The notes below the pieces were generated by a model. The model saw nothing but the letters and a program-made list of their open reading frames with translations. It searched no databases and was not told where the DNA came from. Below are positions 24,663 through 34,496 of a stretch of DNA of 64,000 nucleotides, piece after piece. Position 1 is the first letter of the stretch. Every line of letters starts with the position of its first letter. This DNA comes from Notolepis coatsorum. Lineage: Eukaryota > Chordata > Actinopteri > Aulopiformes > Paralepididae. The DNA lies in assembly GCA_963971535.1 (NCBI GenBank), contig OZ020598.1, positions 94,148,378-94,212,377 on the forward strand. The letters are read 5' to 3'. A program made the position numbers and the translations under genes.

Positions 24663-26294
24663 GTGAGGAGGACCAAGCCAGCTCTCTGAGTGCACCTGGG
24701 TTAGGGTTAGGTGAGGAGGACACTGAGGACCAAGCCTGCTCTCTGAGTGCACCTGGGTTAGGGTTAGGTGAGGAGGACACTGAGGACCAAGCCTGCTCTC
24801 TGAGTGCACCTGTGTTAGGGTTAGGTGAGGAGGACACTGAGGACCAAGCCTGCTCTCTGAGTGCACCTGGGTTAGGGTTAGGTGAGGAGGACACTGAGGA
24901 CCAAGCCTGCTCTCTGAGTGCACCTGGGTTAGGGTTAGGTGAGGAGGACACTGAGGACCAAGCCTGCTCTCTGAGTGCACCTGGGTTAGGGTTAGGTGAG
25001 GAGGACACTGAGGACCAAGCCTGCTCTCTGAGTGCACCTGTGTTAGGGTTAGGTGAGGAGGACACTGAGGACCAAGCCTGCTCTCTGAGTGCACCTGGGT
25101 TAGGGTTAGGTGAGGAGGACACTGAGGACCAAGCCTGCTCTCTGAGTGCACCTGGGTTAGGGTTAGGTGAGGAGGACACTGAGGACCAAGCCTGCTCTCT
25201 GAGTGCACCTGGGTCAGGGTTAGGTGAGGAGGAGAGGACCAAGCCTGCTTTCTGAGTGCACCTGGGTTAGGGTTAGGTGAGGAGGAGAGGACCAAGCCTG
25301 CTCTCTGAGTGCACCTGGGTTAGGGTTAGGTGAGGAGGAGAGGACCAAGCCTGCTCTCTGAGTGCACCTGGGTTAGGGTTAGGTGAGGAGGACGCCGAGG
25401 ACCAAGCCTGCTCTCTGAGTGCACCTGGGTTAGGGTTAGGTGAGGAGGACACTGAGGACCAAGCCTGCTCTCTGAGTGCACCTGGGTCAGGGTTAGGTGA
25501 GGAGGAGAGGACCAAGCCTGCTTTCTGAGTGCACCTGGGTTAGGGTTAGGTGAGGAGGAGAGGACCAAGCCTGCTCTCTGAGTGCACCTGGGTTAGGGTT
25601 AGGTGAGGAGGAGAGGACCAAGCCTGCTCTCTGAGTGCACCTGGGTTAGGGTTAGGTGAGGAGGACGCCGAGGACCAAGCCTGCTCTCTGAGTGCACCTG
25701 GGTTAGGGTTAGGTGAGGAGGACGCCGAGGACCAAGCCTGCTCTCTGAGTGCACCTGGGTTAGGGTTAGGTGAGGAGGACACTGAGGACCAAGCCTGCTC
25801 TCTGAGTGCACCTGGGTTAGGGTTAGGTGAGGAGGAGAGGACCAAGCCTGCTCTCTGAGTGCACCTGGGTTAGGGTTAGGTGAGGAGGAGAGGACCAAGC
25901 CTGCTCTCTGAGTGCACCTGGGTCAGGGTTAGGTGAGGAGGACCAAGCCTGCTCTCTGAGTGCACCTGGGTCAGGGTTAGGTGAGGAGGACCAAGCCTGC
26001 TCTCTGAGTGCACCTGGGTTAGGGTTAGGTGAGGAGGACGCCGAGGACCAAGCCTGCTCTCTGAGTGCACCTGGGTTAGGGTTAGGTGAGCAGGACACAG
26101 AGGACCAAGCCTGCTCTCTGAGTGCACCTGGGTTAGGGTTAGGTGAGGAGGACCAAGCCTGCTCTCTGAGTGCACCTGGGTTAGGGTTAGGTGAGCAGGA
26201 CACAGAGGACCAAGCCTGCTCTCTGAGTGCACCTGGGTTAGGGTTAGGTGAGGAGGACACAGAGGACCAAGCCTGCTCTCTAAGTGCACCTGGG
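24663..26294. repeat. Minisatellite of 30 units (48, 53 or 57 bp) starting at a splice donor
   Basis: Thirty units start at 24663, 24711, 24768, ... 26248. The full unit is 57 bp: GTGAGGAGGACACTGAGGAC, then CAAGCCTGCTCTCTGAGTGC, then ACCTGGGTTAGGGTTAG. The 53- and 48-bp variants lack 4 and 9 bases after GAGGA. Each unit boundary reads TTAG|GTGAGG, a good 5' splice-site sequence, and the first unit begins exactly at the st3gal5 donor. Each unit also holds a telomere-like GGGTTAGGGTTAGG. Because 57 is a multiple of three, long open frames appear on both strands; they are not genes. Confidence 0.97.
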
Positions 26295-27084
26295 AAGCTC
26301 TCACTTCCCGCGCTGCAGGTCGTGCTCGTGACTCACCCGGGCGCTCACGCGCTCTGCTCAGAAATACGGGGGTAACCATAGTAACATAAAAAAAACACTG
26401 TGAGAAAGCTGACAATATTCTAGCAAATTCCAGCGCTATGGATGTGATGCTGGGGCTCCAAACAACTAAAGGAATGACGATGAATGTTATTCACTGGTTG
26501 TATATTTGACTCTGTTCTGCACTGCTGTAGTCTTTTTTTGTTATACTTTATTGTGTCAAAGAAAGTAATTTTACATTTAGGTATAGTACGTGTACCCACA
26601 TACACATACATAACTGCACATATCCATACTTACATACACACACAAATGTACACGCATATTTTTAATCTTGACACTTTTTATTAAATTTTTTTACCCATCA
26701 CCCATACAAAAAACCTGAGACAAAAGGGTGAGTACCAGTATAGATCCTGGACTGGTATACATCTAATATCCCTACTCGTCCCCACATACATATATAAGAA
26801 AAATAATAATGATAATAGTAAATAAATAAAAAATTAAATAATAGAAAGAAAATAAAGTAAAAAAATAAAAATAATAATAATAATAAGTAAAAAGGCTTGA
26901 ATTTTCATTGTAGGTGTAGCGCTGCTGTTTATGTTTATGTTTATTAAAGGATCCCCATTAGAGACACATGAACGAGCCTCTAGTCTTCCTGGGGTCCTGG
27001 ACAAAACAAATACAATACAAATGTACAACAAAAAATACGAATAAAAAATTAAAACAAAACACAAATTAAAAATTAATACAAATA
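26295..27084. other. Intron, A-rich LINE 3'-UTR-like pieces
   Basis: 26674-26900 looks like a reverse LINE 3' region (TTTTTATTAAATT at one end, A-rich runs at the other). TTTATTAAAGGATCCCCATT at 26940-26959 is also a common reverse LINE 3' end. No coding region recognised. Confidence 0.35.
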
Positions 27085-27231
27085 TACAAATTCACATTAT
27101 AAAATCTAACATTCCAGTCAAACAAAAAAAAGATTAAATACACAGATAACGGTTACATACTTGACAAAACACAAATAAAAAATTATACAAATTCACATTA
27201 TAAAATCTAACATTCCAGTCAAACAAAAAAA
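27085..27231. repeat. Direct repeat pair outside the transposon's left end
   Basis: ACAAATTCACATTATAAAAT followed by CTAACATTCCAGTCAAAC is present at 27085-27130 and again at 27186-27231. Between the copies, at 27138-27166, is TACACAGATAACGGTTACAT..., which recurs directly just outside the transposon's right end at 32641-32671. Confidence 0.8.
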
Positions 27232-27627
27232 TCACTGATTCTTGAGAGTCGGGACAAAACATGTCCTACATAGAAAAGTCTAATTTATATAAAAAATAAA
27301 GAAATTAATAATGATTGACATACTCACAAAGTTCAATCTAAAGGTATTGTGTATACTGATGTTATGTTTTAGCACATATATTTGTTTTTTGGGGGATATT
27401 TGTTTAAATGTATAATCTGTGGTTAGAAGCTCCCATGTTAATTTCCTTGTCCTCAGCAAGGGTCACATTATTGACCAGCCCAAAAAAGCTTGAAAAACCT
27501 CTCCACTTGTGAAAACATACATATCAAATCAAGGATAAGGGTTATAAATGTATAAAACAATGCATGCCATGAAACTCAAATAATATTTTCCATAGAAATC
27601 TGCCTATCAAAGTTGTGTCCTCAGTTT

Positions 27628-28030
27628 ATGTCAACTCCGTCAGACTTTTTCATAAACCTAATTAAATCAGGCAATAGCATGGCCAGCTCTATCCCTGAGG
27701 ACTCCTTTTCCTTTCCCTGCCTGTGGTGAATGCAACACTACCACACATGGTCTGGTAAATTTGATACGTTTTGATATTTTAGACAAACAATGTCAATATT
27801 CCTATGGTCACAGCTGGAACATGTCAACACCATCTCTCCGTTATTATACTTTTAAAAAACAATAGTGGATTGAATTCAAGTGTTTCAGTGAGATTATTAA
27901 GACGGCTAGCAACTGCCAAAAAACTAGCTAGCTGCAGTGCACACTACAGGCTTGGAGGGAAAATGTGTGCCTTTTTGTCAACTCCGTCAGACATCAACTC
28001 CGTCAGATTTTGTGTCTGACGGAGTTGACG
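27628..28030. repeat. Left cluster of the 14-bp subterminal motif
   Basis: TCAACTCCGTCAGA occurs at about 27629, 27979 and 27994, and its complement TCTGACGGAGTTGA at about 28015. The last two form an inverted pair separated by a few bases. A further inverted copy is at about 28520, displaced by the SINE insertion. Confidence 0.85.
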
Positions 28031-28041
28031 TGTAAGCTGCC

Positions 28042-28044
<3 letters not shown>

Positions 28045-28073
<29 letters not shown>

Positions 28074-28516
28074 CTTTTTATTATCTTTCTTCTCCTCCTT
28101 TTTTTCCCGATTTCTCTCCCATCCCACCCTTCCTGGTTGTTGCGTACTTTCCCCTACTGTTGGTCCGGGAGACCGGAGACTGTCACATGCTTTCCTCCGA
28201 CGCATGTGCAGCCTGGGGCAGGCCAACCTGGCCGCGCAGGCTCTCACCGGGGAGAGTGTAGCGTGTGGGAGGCCACACTATCTCTCCTCAGTTCCAGCCC
28301 TCTCTGAGCAGGTGCCCCGACCGAACTGTAGGGGTCGCTGTCCACAACGCCCAGGACCCACCCTTCAGCTTTCCCACCCTCTGATACGGCCAATTGTATC
28401 AGTGTGAGGGGCCAGCCAAGCTGATAGCAACGCCGGGAGCTGGATTCGAACAGGCGAATCCTAGTGTCTCCCGGTGTTGGTGACTAACGTAATCTCCGTG
28501 CGCCACCTGCCCCCCC
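28045..28516 (-). mobile_element. tRNA-derived SINE, family 1, reverse
   Basis: On the reverse strand it starts with a box A-like GGTGGCGCACGGAG, followed by GTTCGAATCC (box B) at about 28441-28450, and ends in the poly(A) seen here as a T-run at 28045-28072. Flanking duplications AAGCTG(C/A)CGGA are at 28034-28044 and 28517-28527. About 470 bp, same family as the copies at 31661 and 47049. Confidence 0.85.
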
Positions 28517-29157
28517 AAGCTGACGGAGTTGACAAATCCATCAATAACCTCATAATATGCTATTATTATAAAAATTTTGAACATGGTAAAGGATTTAAAT
28601 GTTATTTCAGAGTTGTATCTGCACAGAAGTGTGCATATAATAGCATGCATTACAATACACTTCTGACTTTTAGAGCATGGGCAGGCTGTGGTCTGCTTAT
28701 TGAATAATTGTCTTACTTTCCCAGCACATGTGTTAATATATAAATATATCACTTGTCTACGTGGTTGATTGATTGATGTAAAATTTCATAACCCAGTAGG
28801 GATACAAGACAGAAGAAAACAGTTATTCTTGTTCTTATACTGTTTACTTAGATCATCAGAGCAAAGGTGAACGGTGGTAAACTGTGGATATTTCATCTTA
28901 ATATCTTTATAATAATTCTTAATATAGGACTGGTCCATGTGTGTCTACTGTAGATTGCTACATCATCCTTTATCTGACTCTTTCCATCCATAGTGTAATA
29001 CATTATGGTATGGAGTGATCAACAGGATAATATTTTGCTAGTCAGTTGTCTCAATCTTATCAGTTGTCACAAGTGTAGAGTTCAAGAAAAATCAGGATCA
29101 GATAAAAATCAGATCAGGATATTCTAGTCTCTCAGACAGGAAAAGCAACGAAGTAAA

Positions 29158-31254
29158 ATGCGAAAAAGGCATTCAAGAGAAATAAAAACTATGAAAGAGA
29201 ATATTACAAATGTAACAAAGCAACGAAACAACCTGATAAAAACAATAATGCGCAGAAAAAAGGCTACAAATACATCACCACTGGACTCTCCAGGCACAGA
29301 AACAAAGAAGATGCTATCAGGAAGCAAAGTAAGGAATCTGAAAATCCAAAAGACCCTTCTATTCCACAACATCCCCAGAAGAGAGCTGAAGACAAACAAA
29401 CTCCTGGCCCACGGCGCCAAAAACCAGCACTGAGTGTGTCATCACTTCAGGCACGATTCTTAAAAAGTATCGTCTTCTTCAACAAATGAAAGAGTTTGGG
29501 TTAACCTACAAGTTAATGAGAGAAAAGGAGCAGCCTCAGAAAAAGCCAACATTAATACAGGGTATAACACAGACTGTTCAGGATTTCTTCCTGAACTCTA
29601 CACGTGTGACAACGGATAAGACTGACACAATCACCAGGAACAAGATCAAGCGGCACATAATGATCCTGCTAGACTCCATGCTCAACCTCCACACTGAATT
29701 CCAGATTAAGAACCCCACTGTAAAGCTGAGCTATTCTTCATTCTGTGCTCTGAGGCCCTTCTATGTCACAGCACCAAAAGCATCTGATCGGAAGACATGT
29801 CTGTGTCAAATACATGAAAATGCATGCTTAATGCTCAAGGTCCTTAAAATGTCTGGTGTTGTGAAGTCAAACAAACTGGATGACCGTTTTCAATTAGTTT
29901 GTTGCTCTCCAGCAAGTGAGGCCTGCCTTCTTCGCGTCTGCTCACAATGTCTAAACAAAGGTACAGTTACAACCCAAGAGCAAGACAAAATCGATGTTCA
30001 ATGGAGGCAGTGGGAGAGAGTTCAAGAAGACCCATGCAATGGAATCGACATGAACACTAAGCTCGTCGAACACCGAGGCAGCCTTTCATTGCTCATCAAA
30101 CTTTATGAGCAAAAACTCAGAAAGGAAACCACAACACATGTGTGTTCATTGCGAAACCAGTCAAAAGAATACAGCAACACAATTGAGTCCTGTGATGAGA
30201 GTACAGCAATCGTCCATGTTGACTTTTCAGAATCGTGGAAATTCAAATATAAAGCTGAAGTTCAGGCCTGCCATTTCGGACAAAATCTGCCACAGAATGT
30301 ATTACACTAAGGGTGGAAAGGCAGGGTTTTGCACACTGTCAGAGTCAAAGAGACAGGATGCTGCAGCAATCTGGACACAAATGGATCCAGTCCTAAAAGA
30401 TATCAAGACAAAATATCCACAGGTTACCACCGTGCACTTTTGGTCTGATGGTCCAAGCAAACAAGAACAAGAAAAACTTTTTTCTTCTGTCTGGTATCCC
30501 ACCTACACTGGGGTTTGAAATGACAACGTGGAACTTCTTCCCCACTTCTCATGGTAAGGGCTCACCAGACGGCATTGGCGGAACAGTAAAAAGAACAGCT
30601 GACAACCTGGTCCTGAGAGGAAATTATGTGACGGATGTACACATATTCTTCAAAAAGGTCTCAAACAGTCTGAATGGTGTTCAGCTGTATCATATTGTGG
30701 AAGAAGACATGCAAAGATACGACACACTTCTCATGAATCCTCTCAAACCGGTTCCCTCAACAAGACAAATACACCAGATCATCGCACATAAGGACAGGAT
30801 CCACAACAGACAACTATCCTGCTTTTGCAGCGAGATGTTGGATTGCCAGTGCTTCTGCCCAGCTACCTCATATTACCATGGCAACCCAGGAGAACAGCAG
30901 AGTGATACACGGAGGGCAAGGAAGAAGAGACCTCTGGCCATGTTGTGGGAGGAGATGGAAAATGAGATGGAAGAGGGTATGGAGATGGAAGATGTAATGG
31001 AGGAGTTGGACGAAGAACCTTTGAAAGGTCCTGAGGGTACGGTGACAGTAACGACTGTTAGCAGCCTTAGTAATGGAGACTGGTTAGCAGTAGTATATGA
31101 TGACCACTGGTGGCTAGCCAAGACCATCGATGTGGATAATGAGCAACAAGATGTGAAAGTGGAATTTCTGCATCCCCATGGTCCAACAGAAATGTGGTTC
31201 AGCCCAAATGTGGCAAGAAGGATGTCTGTTTCTGCCCAGTTCAAGACATCATAG
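29158..31254 (+). pseudogene. Transposase-like gene of the 27232-32631 element, frameshifted
   Basis: Successive frames 29158-29433, 29486-30310, about 30301-30475 and 30448-31254 read as one decayed protein. The first part is very basic. The next has a Cys-rich segment (CLCQIHENAC, CCSPASEAC, VCSQC) that may bind zinc. Then come VHVDFSESW, VHFWSDGPSK and HGKGSPDGIGGTVKR, acid-containing blocks spaced like a DDE catalytic core. The C terminus has an acidic patch and GDWLAVVYDDHWWLAKTIDV, a Tudor- or SH3-like module. I recall similar multi-copy proteins in fish but cannot name the superfamily. At least two frameshifts (near 30300 and 30470) make this copy inactive. Confidence 0.75.
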
Positions 31255-31555
31255 TGAAACTAATCAGAAATGCAGAAGGAAAGGAAGAGGAGAAGTGGGT
31301 GAGAAAGTGGAGATCAGGAAGTGGTGTAGAGGAGGTAGATGAAAACAGGGACGAGAAGAAGGGGTCCTGTTCTCCATTACTGTTTTTGTTGTTGGAAACA
31401 GTGCATTTTGTAATAGTTGGAAACAGTGTATGTAAAGTTGGTTGTTTATTACAATTGAGTTAACAAAATGTTCAGTATAAGACATGGAGTTATTAGTTCT
31501 TATTATTGTCACTTCCATCTGTTTAAAAAATTGAGCAGAGATGCAAATCCAATTT

Positions 31556-31604
31556 TGTCAACTCCGTCAGTTTCTCGTCAACACCGTCAGATCATTGTCA
31601 ACAC
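31556..31604. repeat. Right cluster of the 14-bp subterminal motif
   Basis: Three direct copies TCAAC(T/A)CCGTCAG start at about 31558, 31573 and 31591, only 15-18 bp apart. A single inverted copy TCTGACGGAGTTAA lies at about 32428. Confidence 0.85.
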
Positions 31605-31660
31605 CGTCAGATATTTATTTTTGTTAATCTTGGGGAAAATACAAATTCCTTCTTCAGTTT

Positions 31661-32137
31661 TTTTTTTATCCACTTTTTCTTCAATTTTTCTATATTTTCT
31701 CCCATCCCAATTTCGTATCATCCAATTCAACCCTCCCCTGTCACGAACGCTGTTTCTTGCCTCCCACAAGCCGGCTGCAATGTGGACTAAGTCATACATA
31801 GCACAAGTCCCCTCCGGTACTTGAGGTAACAGCAGTCGCATCTTTTCACCTGCGCAGCTCGATCTCTCAGTGGCGAGGAGTAACGCGTGGGAGGCTCACG
31901 CTGCCCCCGACACTTCCTGATTCTACTGCGCAGGCGCACCAACCGACCTGTAGGAGTCGCTGTCCACAACGCCCGATCCCCACCCATCAGTTTCCCACCC
32001 CCTAATACGGCCAATGTGTATTAGTATGAACGACCAGCTAAACTGAAAGCAATGTGGAGCGCTGGGCTCGAACAGGCAAGCCCAGCGTCTCCGTCATTCG
32101 TGGCGAGCGCCTTGCCCACTACGCCACGTAGCCGCCC
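31661..32137 (-). mobile_element. tRNA-derived SINE, family 1, reverse
   Basis: Flanked by 18-bp duplications AAATTCCTT(C/T)TTCAGTTT at 31643-31660 and 32138-32155. Box B reversed is seen as GGGCTCGAAC near 32064. TAATACGGCCAATGTGTATT matches the same internal block of the 28045 copy. Confidence 0.85.
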
Positions 32138-32808
32138 AAATTCCTTTTTCAGTTTATGTTGTTTAAGTAATAAAGGAGCATTAGATCTTCATCCTCTTGT
32201 GTCTTATTTACTTAATGATATTTTTTTTATCATATCAAAATTAAAAATAAAGTTTGAAAATGCTAATATTTCTAACTCTGGGTTTTCAGAATAGTGTGAA
32301 ATTACACCTGAGGTTTATATATTATATTTTATTGCATACCAGAGTAACTAAACACTATTACAACATACTTCAGCACTTTAGATTCTTGTTGGACTGGAAT
32401 AATTAGAATTATATACTTTTTTGTGTGTCTGACGGAGTTAACACAAATCAAGTTTCAAAGGGAAACATGTGAATTTGTTGAAAATGTTTTTCTATGTAGA
32501 GCCCACACCTTTACATGGTTAAATAGCTCAGACCTTTCTCTACATGAATATATAACTCTAATTAATATAGTGTGCATTCTCAAAATATAATATTTAAAAC
32601 GTGTTTTGTCCCGACTCTCAAGAATCAGTGAAATATATAATACACAGAAGATAACCGTTACATACTTGACATTTGCAAGATATCTCTTAATATTTGTTTT
32701 GAAAGTAATTTTATTATGTATTGTGGATGAGATGTTTTTGTGCTGATTTTGTTCTGATGTTACCAGAAGCGGGCCCTCTAGTGTTGTAACCATGTTCAGA
32801 AGTCATTT

Positions 32809-33060: not shown

Positions 33061-33109
33061 TTAACCCAGTTGTACAGTAAATTACCAAGTATGGCTTTGT
33101 CAGTATTCC

Positions 33110-34496
33110 AGTGTACAGTGTCCCCCCCCCCCCTACCCCAACCCCCCCCCCCCCCCCTCCAATGTACAGCCCCCACCCACCAACCCCACCCCACCCACCC
33201 AACCTCCTCCAATGTACAGTTTCTACGTCAAATGTATATACACTCTTTTTCTGGACACTTTTTGTATCACAAACAGTACTGTATTTGCAAATCTGATATG
33301 TCATAAATTTATAGATGTAGCAGTACTGTCTATCTGTCTAGCCTGTCTGTCCGACATCTCAGCCTGGATGACGTCCAACCACCTCAAACTGAACCTAAGC
33401 AAAACAGAATTGCTCCACCTGCCGGCCAAATCCTCCCCCCTAACCGACCTTTCAATCACAGTCGAGAATGCAGCTGTGACTGCGTCCCCGACCGCCAAGA
33501 ACCTTGGTGTTGTCCTCGACGACCAGTTGAACTTCTCTGCTCACATCGCAGCGACGACCAGAACCTGCCGATTCCTCCTGAGCAACGTCAGAAGGATACG
33601 CCCCTTCCTGACAAAAGAAGCCACCCAACTCCTCGTCCAATCAACAGTCATCTCCCGCCTCGACTACTGCAATGCACTGCTCGCTGGCCTCCCGGCCACT
33701 GCCACTAAGCCTCTTCAACTCATTCAGAACGCAGCGGCCCGCCTGATCTCAAACCTACCGAAGTCGGCCCATGTCACCCCACTTCTTAGGGACCTGCACT
33801 GGCTCCCCATTGCTGCACGAATCCGCTTCAAGGCCCTCGACCTAGCATACCGTGCGGCAAAGGGAACCGCTCCCGCCTACCTCCGGTCAATGGTCTCTAA
33901 CTACACACCCTCAAGACCCCTACGCTCTGCATCTTCTGGCCGCCTCAGACCTACTCCTATCCAAGCTCCGGGAGGGTCATCAAAGAGAAGTCGCCTATTC
34001 TCAGTCCTTGCCCCACAATGGTGGAATGAACTACCCACCCCAGTTAGGACAGCCGAATCACGTCCAATCTTTCGCCGTCGACTAAAGACGCACTTCTTCA
34101 ACCATTATCTGAATTAAAAAAAAAAAAAAAAAAAAATCTAACCCTAACTAACCGTACTGTCATGCACTTGTCCTAATAAACTAACCTACACTGTAGCACT
34201 CAACACTTTGATGAACATTGTTGCTCAGCTGATAGAGTTGTGCCCTTCCTGATGGCTTGTCGTACAGAACTTGTAAGTCGCTTTGGATAAAAGCGTCAGC
34301 TAAATGACTAAATGTAAATGTATCTGTATCTGTATGTCATGTATGTCATATGATGAATTGAAAATGGGGGACCCTGATGTAAACAAGACGAAAGTCTTTC
34401 TCTGGTCTGCATCCCCTTAACAATTGTATGTATTGAGCTGTACTGTACTGTACCCATTCTGCAATCTGTTAATAAACTTTTCAATCAATCAATCAA
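33110..34496 (+). mobile_element. CR1/L2-type LINE 3' end split by an L2 insertion
   Basis: The outer LINE 3'UTR (family of 1600-3052) occupies 33110-33334 and resumes at 34321-34496, ending in AATAAACTTTTCAATCAATC. The unbroken copy at 7195 shows the original order (CTATCTGTATGTCATGATGA), and TATCTGT is duplicated across the insertion. Confidence 0.8.
33335..34320 (+). mobile_element. L2 LINE, 5'-truncated, coding C terminus open
   Basis: The frame through 34117 encodes the end of an L2 reverse transcriptase: DISAWMTSNHLKLNLSKTE, LGVVLDDQLNFSAHI, SRLDYCNALLAGLP, HWLPIAARIRFKALDLAYRA, WWNELPTPVRTAES and RRRLKTHFFNHYL. The catalytic box is missing. The 3' end TCGCTTTGGATAAAAGCGTC and AAATGACTAAATGTAAATGT is the classic fish L2 tail that many SINEs borrow. 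A run of about 21 A follows the stop codon. Confidence 0.92.

Follow-up and report, generated by a model that had tools for sequence, protein, structure and literature searches.

A decayed copy of a young cut-and-paste transposon family in Notolepis coatsorum, tentatively placed in the Sola2 group

The DNA analysed here, referred to as the window, is a 64,000-nucleotide stretch of the Notolepis coatsorum assembly GCA_963971535.1 (contig OZ020598.1, forward-strand positions 94,148,378 to 94,212,377). It contains a transposon that we read as a dead copy of a young cut-and-paste family, whose lineage belongs, on a judgement that leans only somewhat to this side, to the Sola superfamily and its Sola2 group. 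The family is real, young and mostly ordinary, and its protein lineage is without a name in the libraries searched. An earlier note, made from the letters alone, had described a 5.4-kb DNA transposon at 27232..32631 with near-perfect 33-bp inverted ends, enclosing one decayed gene for a transposase that could not be assigned to a named superfamily.

A repeat search of the window found an inverted pair of 41 nucleotides (90% complementary) at 27232-27272 and 32591-32631. Comparison of copies shifted both borders one base inward, the first T and the last A belonging to the target duplication; the inverted ends described before are thus real, but the element runs from 27233 to 32630 and 29 bp of each end are perfectly paired. 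The terminal letters of the element are CACTG..CAGTG. Genome-wide, the 29-bp end was found 617 times with up to two mismatches (308 + 309), against none for the reversed control (0 + 0), which places the ends beyond chance. A paralogous empty site was also recognised: with the element taken out, the joined flanks align with an upstream unit of ~101 bp. This unit is repeated upstream at 27080-27231 and a further part lies just downstream (32649-32671), with the element inside the unit. Together with the 4-bp duplications described below, the ends and their genome-wide occurrence bear out the identification as a DNA transposon.

When the first 301 bp of the element were searched against the genome, 40 places were scored at 99-100% identity, the window included (40 of 620 candidates were scored), and 20 of the 39 others were fetched for copy comparison. 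Both ends were present in 17 of these 20 (not in L009, L014 and L018), and in all 17 the gene lies between the ends, with deletions or insertions in some of them; in L014 only the first 572 bp of the element lie within the fetched stretch. No short derivative was seen by eye, there being no facing pair of ends less than 3 kb apart among the 100 ends listed. Reading the duplications of the copies, a check that the earlier note had proposed, showed identical 4-bp target duplications in 16 of 18 copies, the window copy included. Twelve of the 16 are of the AWWT type, seven of them ATAT, whereas AWWT accounts for 3.2% of the 4-mers of the window. Most sister copies (12/17) measure 4.38-4.48 kb, within a range of 4.13-5.29 kb. 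The window copy is longer because it carries two inserts resembling short interspersed nuclear elements (SINEs), missing at these sites from all 17 sisters that have both ends; the size of 5.4 kb therefore holds for this copy (5398 bp), but ~950 bp of it are later additions. The median pairwise divergence among copies is 1.03% (range 0.02 to 2.04%), and this value of ~1% suggests that the family is young and was amplified recently.

The two inserts have their own duplications, AAGCTG and AAATTCCTTYTTCAG, and insert 2 is 75-80% alike to insert 1 across two stretches of 61 and 76 nucleotides. They are called SINE-like from their poly-T side, their mutual likeness and these duplications; no library match names them. 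A 96% identical copy of insert 1 was found at a different place in another copy of the same transposon (L027, 3788-4229).

Near both ends of the element, the repeat TCAACTCCGTCAGA occurs in 8 or 9 copies per element in all 18 elements (up to two mismatches), compared with a mean of 0.02 and a maximum of 1 in 200 shuffles of the window element. These subterminal repeats are likely transposase-binding sites.

The gene of the window copy contains everything described before, namely three acidic blocks, a Cys-rich region ahead of them and the GDWLAVVYDD motif after them, spread across three frames. Blocks 2 and 3 share a frame in none of the 18 aligned copies, and one frame break between them is common to 17 of the 18. 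L013 lacks the common break and has another one, and L030 resembles L013; block 1 is also missing in L022 and L025, and individual copies have additional indels and stops of their own. Among the candidates scored (110 of 1573 in one search and 146 of 954 in another), no copy proved intact, but an intact one may exist. Since the copies are broken and yet spread, the enzyme would have come from elsewhere, and the family is called non-autonomous.

Relatives of the transposase were found in the same genome. The pattern HGKGA[PA]DG[VI]G, written in codons other than those of the window family, occurs at 347 places genome-wide (control 0), at least one of the places listed being a near-copy of the window family. 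Five pattern places and one further stretch were fetched (L062-L067); they represent five families, L067 belonging to the L062 family. All five have blocks 2 and 3. L064, L065 and L066 also have block 1 (with Tyr for Asp in L065) and the Cys-rich N-terminal region. In L064, a single open frame of 224 amino acids (P0006) contains VHIDFSENY, HFLSDGP and HGKGAPDGVG, the acids being separated by 82 and 41 residues. In protein comparisons, L030 of the window family is 46% identical to P0006 over 102 amino acids (E 3e-28), the window piece with block 3 is 38% identical to L063 over 136 amino acids (E 2e-25), and the Cys-rich N-terminal half is 37% identical to L065 over 100 amino acids (E 2e-19). 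Core identity between the window family and the four sister families compared is 39-48%. L062 was left out of the alignments, having no long frame.

Codon positions differ in the order expected of a translated gene: in 13 of the 15 possible comparisons (two were dropped for too little shared sequence), differences amount to 58-74% at third, 22-49% at first and 11-38% at second positions, which indicates selection on the protein. The three acidic blocks noticed in the window belong to a single protein and make up its conserved core. For the third acid there are two candidates in the lineage, an Asp and a Glu, which lie 41 and 32 residues, respectively, beyond the second Asp; the Asp of PDG in block 3 was found in all families read. 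Its setting before LKR resembles what we take to be the third-acid region of Merlin/IS1595 enzymes. Matches to P0006 in the genome comprise 906 candidate places, of which 150 were scored; 17 of the matches listed are free of stops and lie in open frames of 614-990 amino acids, another lies in a frame of 4650, and these frames may be incomplete. L067 was taken next to a match with a 671-amino-acid open frame. Eight listed motif places, spelled alike and all on one strand, fall within ~143 kb (C1:248410309-248553511 of genome G000), suggesting that one sister family was amplified locally.

The earlier note had regarded the fusion of a chromatin-reader-like module, at the C terminus, to a DDE-like core as unusual. 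That view found no support: a similar stretch follows the same Cys-rich (CxC) region in L063 (GQWCVLTYDQELYPGII), L067 (GKWVLVEYDAELFPGTI) and L066 (GQWCMLRYN). Between L063 and L067 the relationship of the modules is clear (z 10.0), and the window module is weakly like both (z 2.0 and 3.1, with 97 and 28 of 2000 shuffles reaching the score, respectively; a BLASTP comparison of the window piece with L063 returned E 0.039). From its position and order, the module was probably inherited within the lineage and is not a new fusion. In L067 (minus strand), ~450 bp with stops precede the module, perhaps an intron, and L063 reads through. Pfam scans of the C-terminal pieces returned no Tudor, SH3-like or other family at E up to 10 (one scan at 1).

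Searches of protein libraries gave no name to the transposase. Pfam scans of the pieces showed no transposase match, all matches being below curated cut-offs; the best of them, Perilipin (E 0.0065, 16 bits against a cut-off of 33), was rejected. NCBIfam scans of the pieces gave no match, and sequence searches of PDB gave chance-level matches or none, the alignment used for the profile search containing out-of-frame stretches. No relatives were found in viral contigs, prokaryote contigs, phages or plasmids, and none of five motif strings was matched in the literature library searched. The contig collections are prokaryotic and viral, and Pfam may hold no Sola models.

The view that the transposase is unassignable therefore stands as far as Pfam, NCBIfam and PDB are concerned, but the published target preference of Sola2 fits well. 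Sola elements are described as having a transposase with three catalytic Asp (DDD), 4-bp duplications, sizes of mostly 2-9 kb and inverted ends of 11-1124 bp (PMC10741241), and they are reported from zebrafish, medaka and stickleback (PMC4746887). The 4-bp duplication in 16 of 18 copies, the size of 4.38-4.48 kb in 12 of 17 sisters and the 29-bp ends agree with this description. Sola2-type elements of dictyostelids have AT-rich 4-bp duplications of the AWWT type (ATAT, AAAT, ATTT), according to PMC3627910, and the 12 AWWT duplications among 16 identical pairs, against the window background, match them. Three Asp blocks are present in P0006 and the window family, as in a DDD enzyme, block 3 being part of the search pattern and a Glu at 33 positions after the second Asp (D2+33) being its rival. 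Several observations speak against the Sola2 assignment, a likely name drawn from published descriptions. Two copies (L011 and L025) have no matching duplication. The relatives were chosen by a pattern that demands the block-3 Asp, so that DDD is not secure, and L065 has Tyr for the Asp of block 1. The pattern makes no demand for the Glu at D2+33 (in FEASHGKG or the like); L062-L066 have this Glu, and the window family has Pro; if this Glu is catalytic, the window family would have lost a catalytic acid. Its presence in five other families weakens the Sola2 reading and strengthens that of a separate superfamily. Finally, the CAC..GTG ends and the 4-bp duplication agree with the hallmarks of Chapaev elements, 5'-CAC..GTG-3' ends and duplications of 3-4 bp (PMC4079192).

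A Chapaev-type (CMC) element with a DDE transposase would account for the CACTG..CAGTG ends and the 4-bp duplication, but we consider it improbable. The Chapaev clade has C(2)C and H(3-4)H motifs between the second D and the last E (PMC12730594). None of seven pieces, which are incomplete, contains C(2)C; among them, H(3-4)H is confined to the window family, where two H(4)H matches lie past block 3. Both motifs are absent from the second D on in P0006, P0007 and P0008. The first two of these stop a short way beyond block 3, so that only P0008 tests the later part, and the pieces have no Pfam transposase match. A separate, undescribed superfamily with acids spaced 82 and 41 (or 32), AWWT sites and CAC..GTG ends is a possible reading but a doubtful one. 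The lack of relatives, of library matches above chance and of the motif strings in the literature library favours it; however, given the scope of the collections and of Pfam, this silence says little, and the Sola2 target preference fits. A fuller version, in which such a superfamily combines CMC-like CAC..GTG ends, a core with 32 or 41 residues between the last acids and an inherited module with a possible part in reading chromatin and in steering insertion to AWWT sites, is unlikely. As for the broken gene, it is very hard to believe that it works, with programmed frameshifting or an intron bridging the breaks and the copies being autonomous. The break common to 17 of 18 copies and the interruption with stops in L067 would agree with this, but a single open frame spans blocks 1-3 in P0006, the break of L013 and L030 is another one, and the copies have private indels and stops besides.

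With the family taken as a non-autonomous member of the Sola2 lineage, an intact transposase made elsewhere would bind the subterminal repeats and the ends, cut the element out at CAC/GTG and join its ends 4 bp apart into AT-rich sites, with AWWT preferred. The enzyme would use three acids in a ribonuclease H-type core, two Asp 82 residues apart and a third acid that may be Asp (+41) or Glu (+32). Hundreds of ends, ~1% divergence and 18 of 18 sampled copies broken point to a young amplification by an enzyme acting in trans. The same genome, with its sister families that have long open frames, is suited to the study of an enzyme lineage without a name in the curated protein libraries searched. 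If the C-terminal module is indeed a chromatin reader, this would have consequences for the question of how such transposons select their sites.

Features of the element in the window copy (positions in the window)
Feature	Position	Strand	Remarks
Whole element	27233..32630	+	5398 bp, of which ~950 bp later SINE-like inserts; borders from 18-copy comparison
Left target site duplication AAAT	27229..27232	.	Copy comparison and letters read
Right target site duplication AAAT	32631..32634	.	Copy comparison and letters read
Left terminal inverted repeat	27233..27261	+	29 bp, perfect
Right terminal inverted repeat	32602..32630	-	29 bp, perfect
Left subterminal repeats TCAACTCCGTCAGA	27631..28532		27631, 27978, 27994 (+); 28015, 28519 (-)
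SINE-like insert 1	28044..28517	-	Strand inferred from poly-T side; ~474 bp, approximate borders from alignment gaps
Transposase N-terminal piece, basic stretch	29157..29489	+	Start uncertain; in frame with next piece in L010
Transposase piece with Cys-rich region and first acidic block	29390..30310	+	Cys-rich region ~29740-29965; relatives P0009, P0010
Block 1 VHVDFSESW	30212..30238	+	Asp codon 30221-30223
Transposase piece: block 3, IHQ..CxC..CxC stretch, C-terminal module	30397..31254	+	
Block 2 HFWSDGPSK	30435..30461	+	Asp codon 30447-30449
Block 3 HGKGSPDGIGG	30550..30582	+	Asp codon 30568-30570
GDWLAVVYDD C-terminal module	31075..31254	+	Tudor/SH3-like by look only
Right subterminal repeats TCAACTCCGTCAGA	31558..32441		31558, 31578, 31598 (+); 32428 (-)
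SINE-like insert 2	31661..32137	-	Strand inferred; ~477 bp, approximate borders from alignment gaps

Outside the element, a 57-bp tandem array at 25000-26294 of the window (~24 copies, 93% matches) has open frames on both strands and may begin before 25000. On the other side, an open frame of 350 amino acids (33065-34117, plus strand) resembles by eye the reverse transcriptase end of a long interspersed nuclear element (LINE). Over its last 411 bp it is 98.8% identical to a stretch inside the sister-family locus L063, and this LINE therefore looks young too. An Rfam scan gave a single match, below the gathering score and outside the element.

Compared with known systems, the element shares with Chapaev/CMC elements (PMC4079192) the 5'-CAC..GTG-3' ends and the 3-4 bp duplication; it differs in the lack of C(2)C beyond the second D of the pieces examined, and in its AWWT duplication, in contrast to the TWA of Chapaev3. 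With the Sola2-type elements, as described in PMC3627910, it shares AT-rich AWWT-type duplications of 4 bp, short inverted ends and one large transposase gene. The likeness is one of description, and it goes along with differences: the inverted ends are 29 bp here and 12-21 bp there, and no Fanzor gene was seen in the element studied here.

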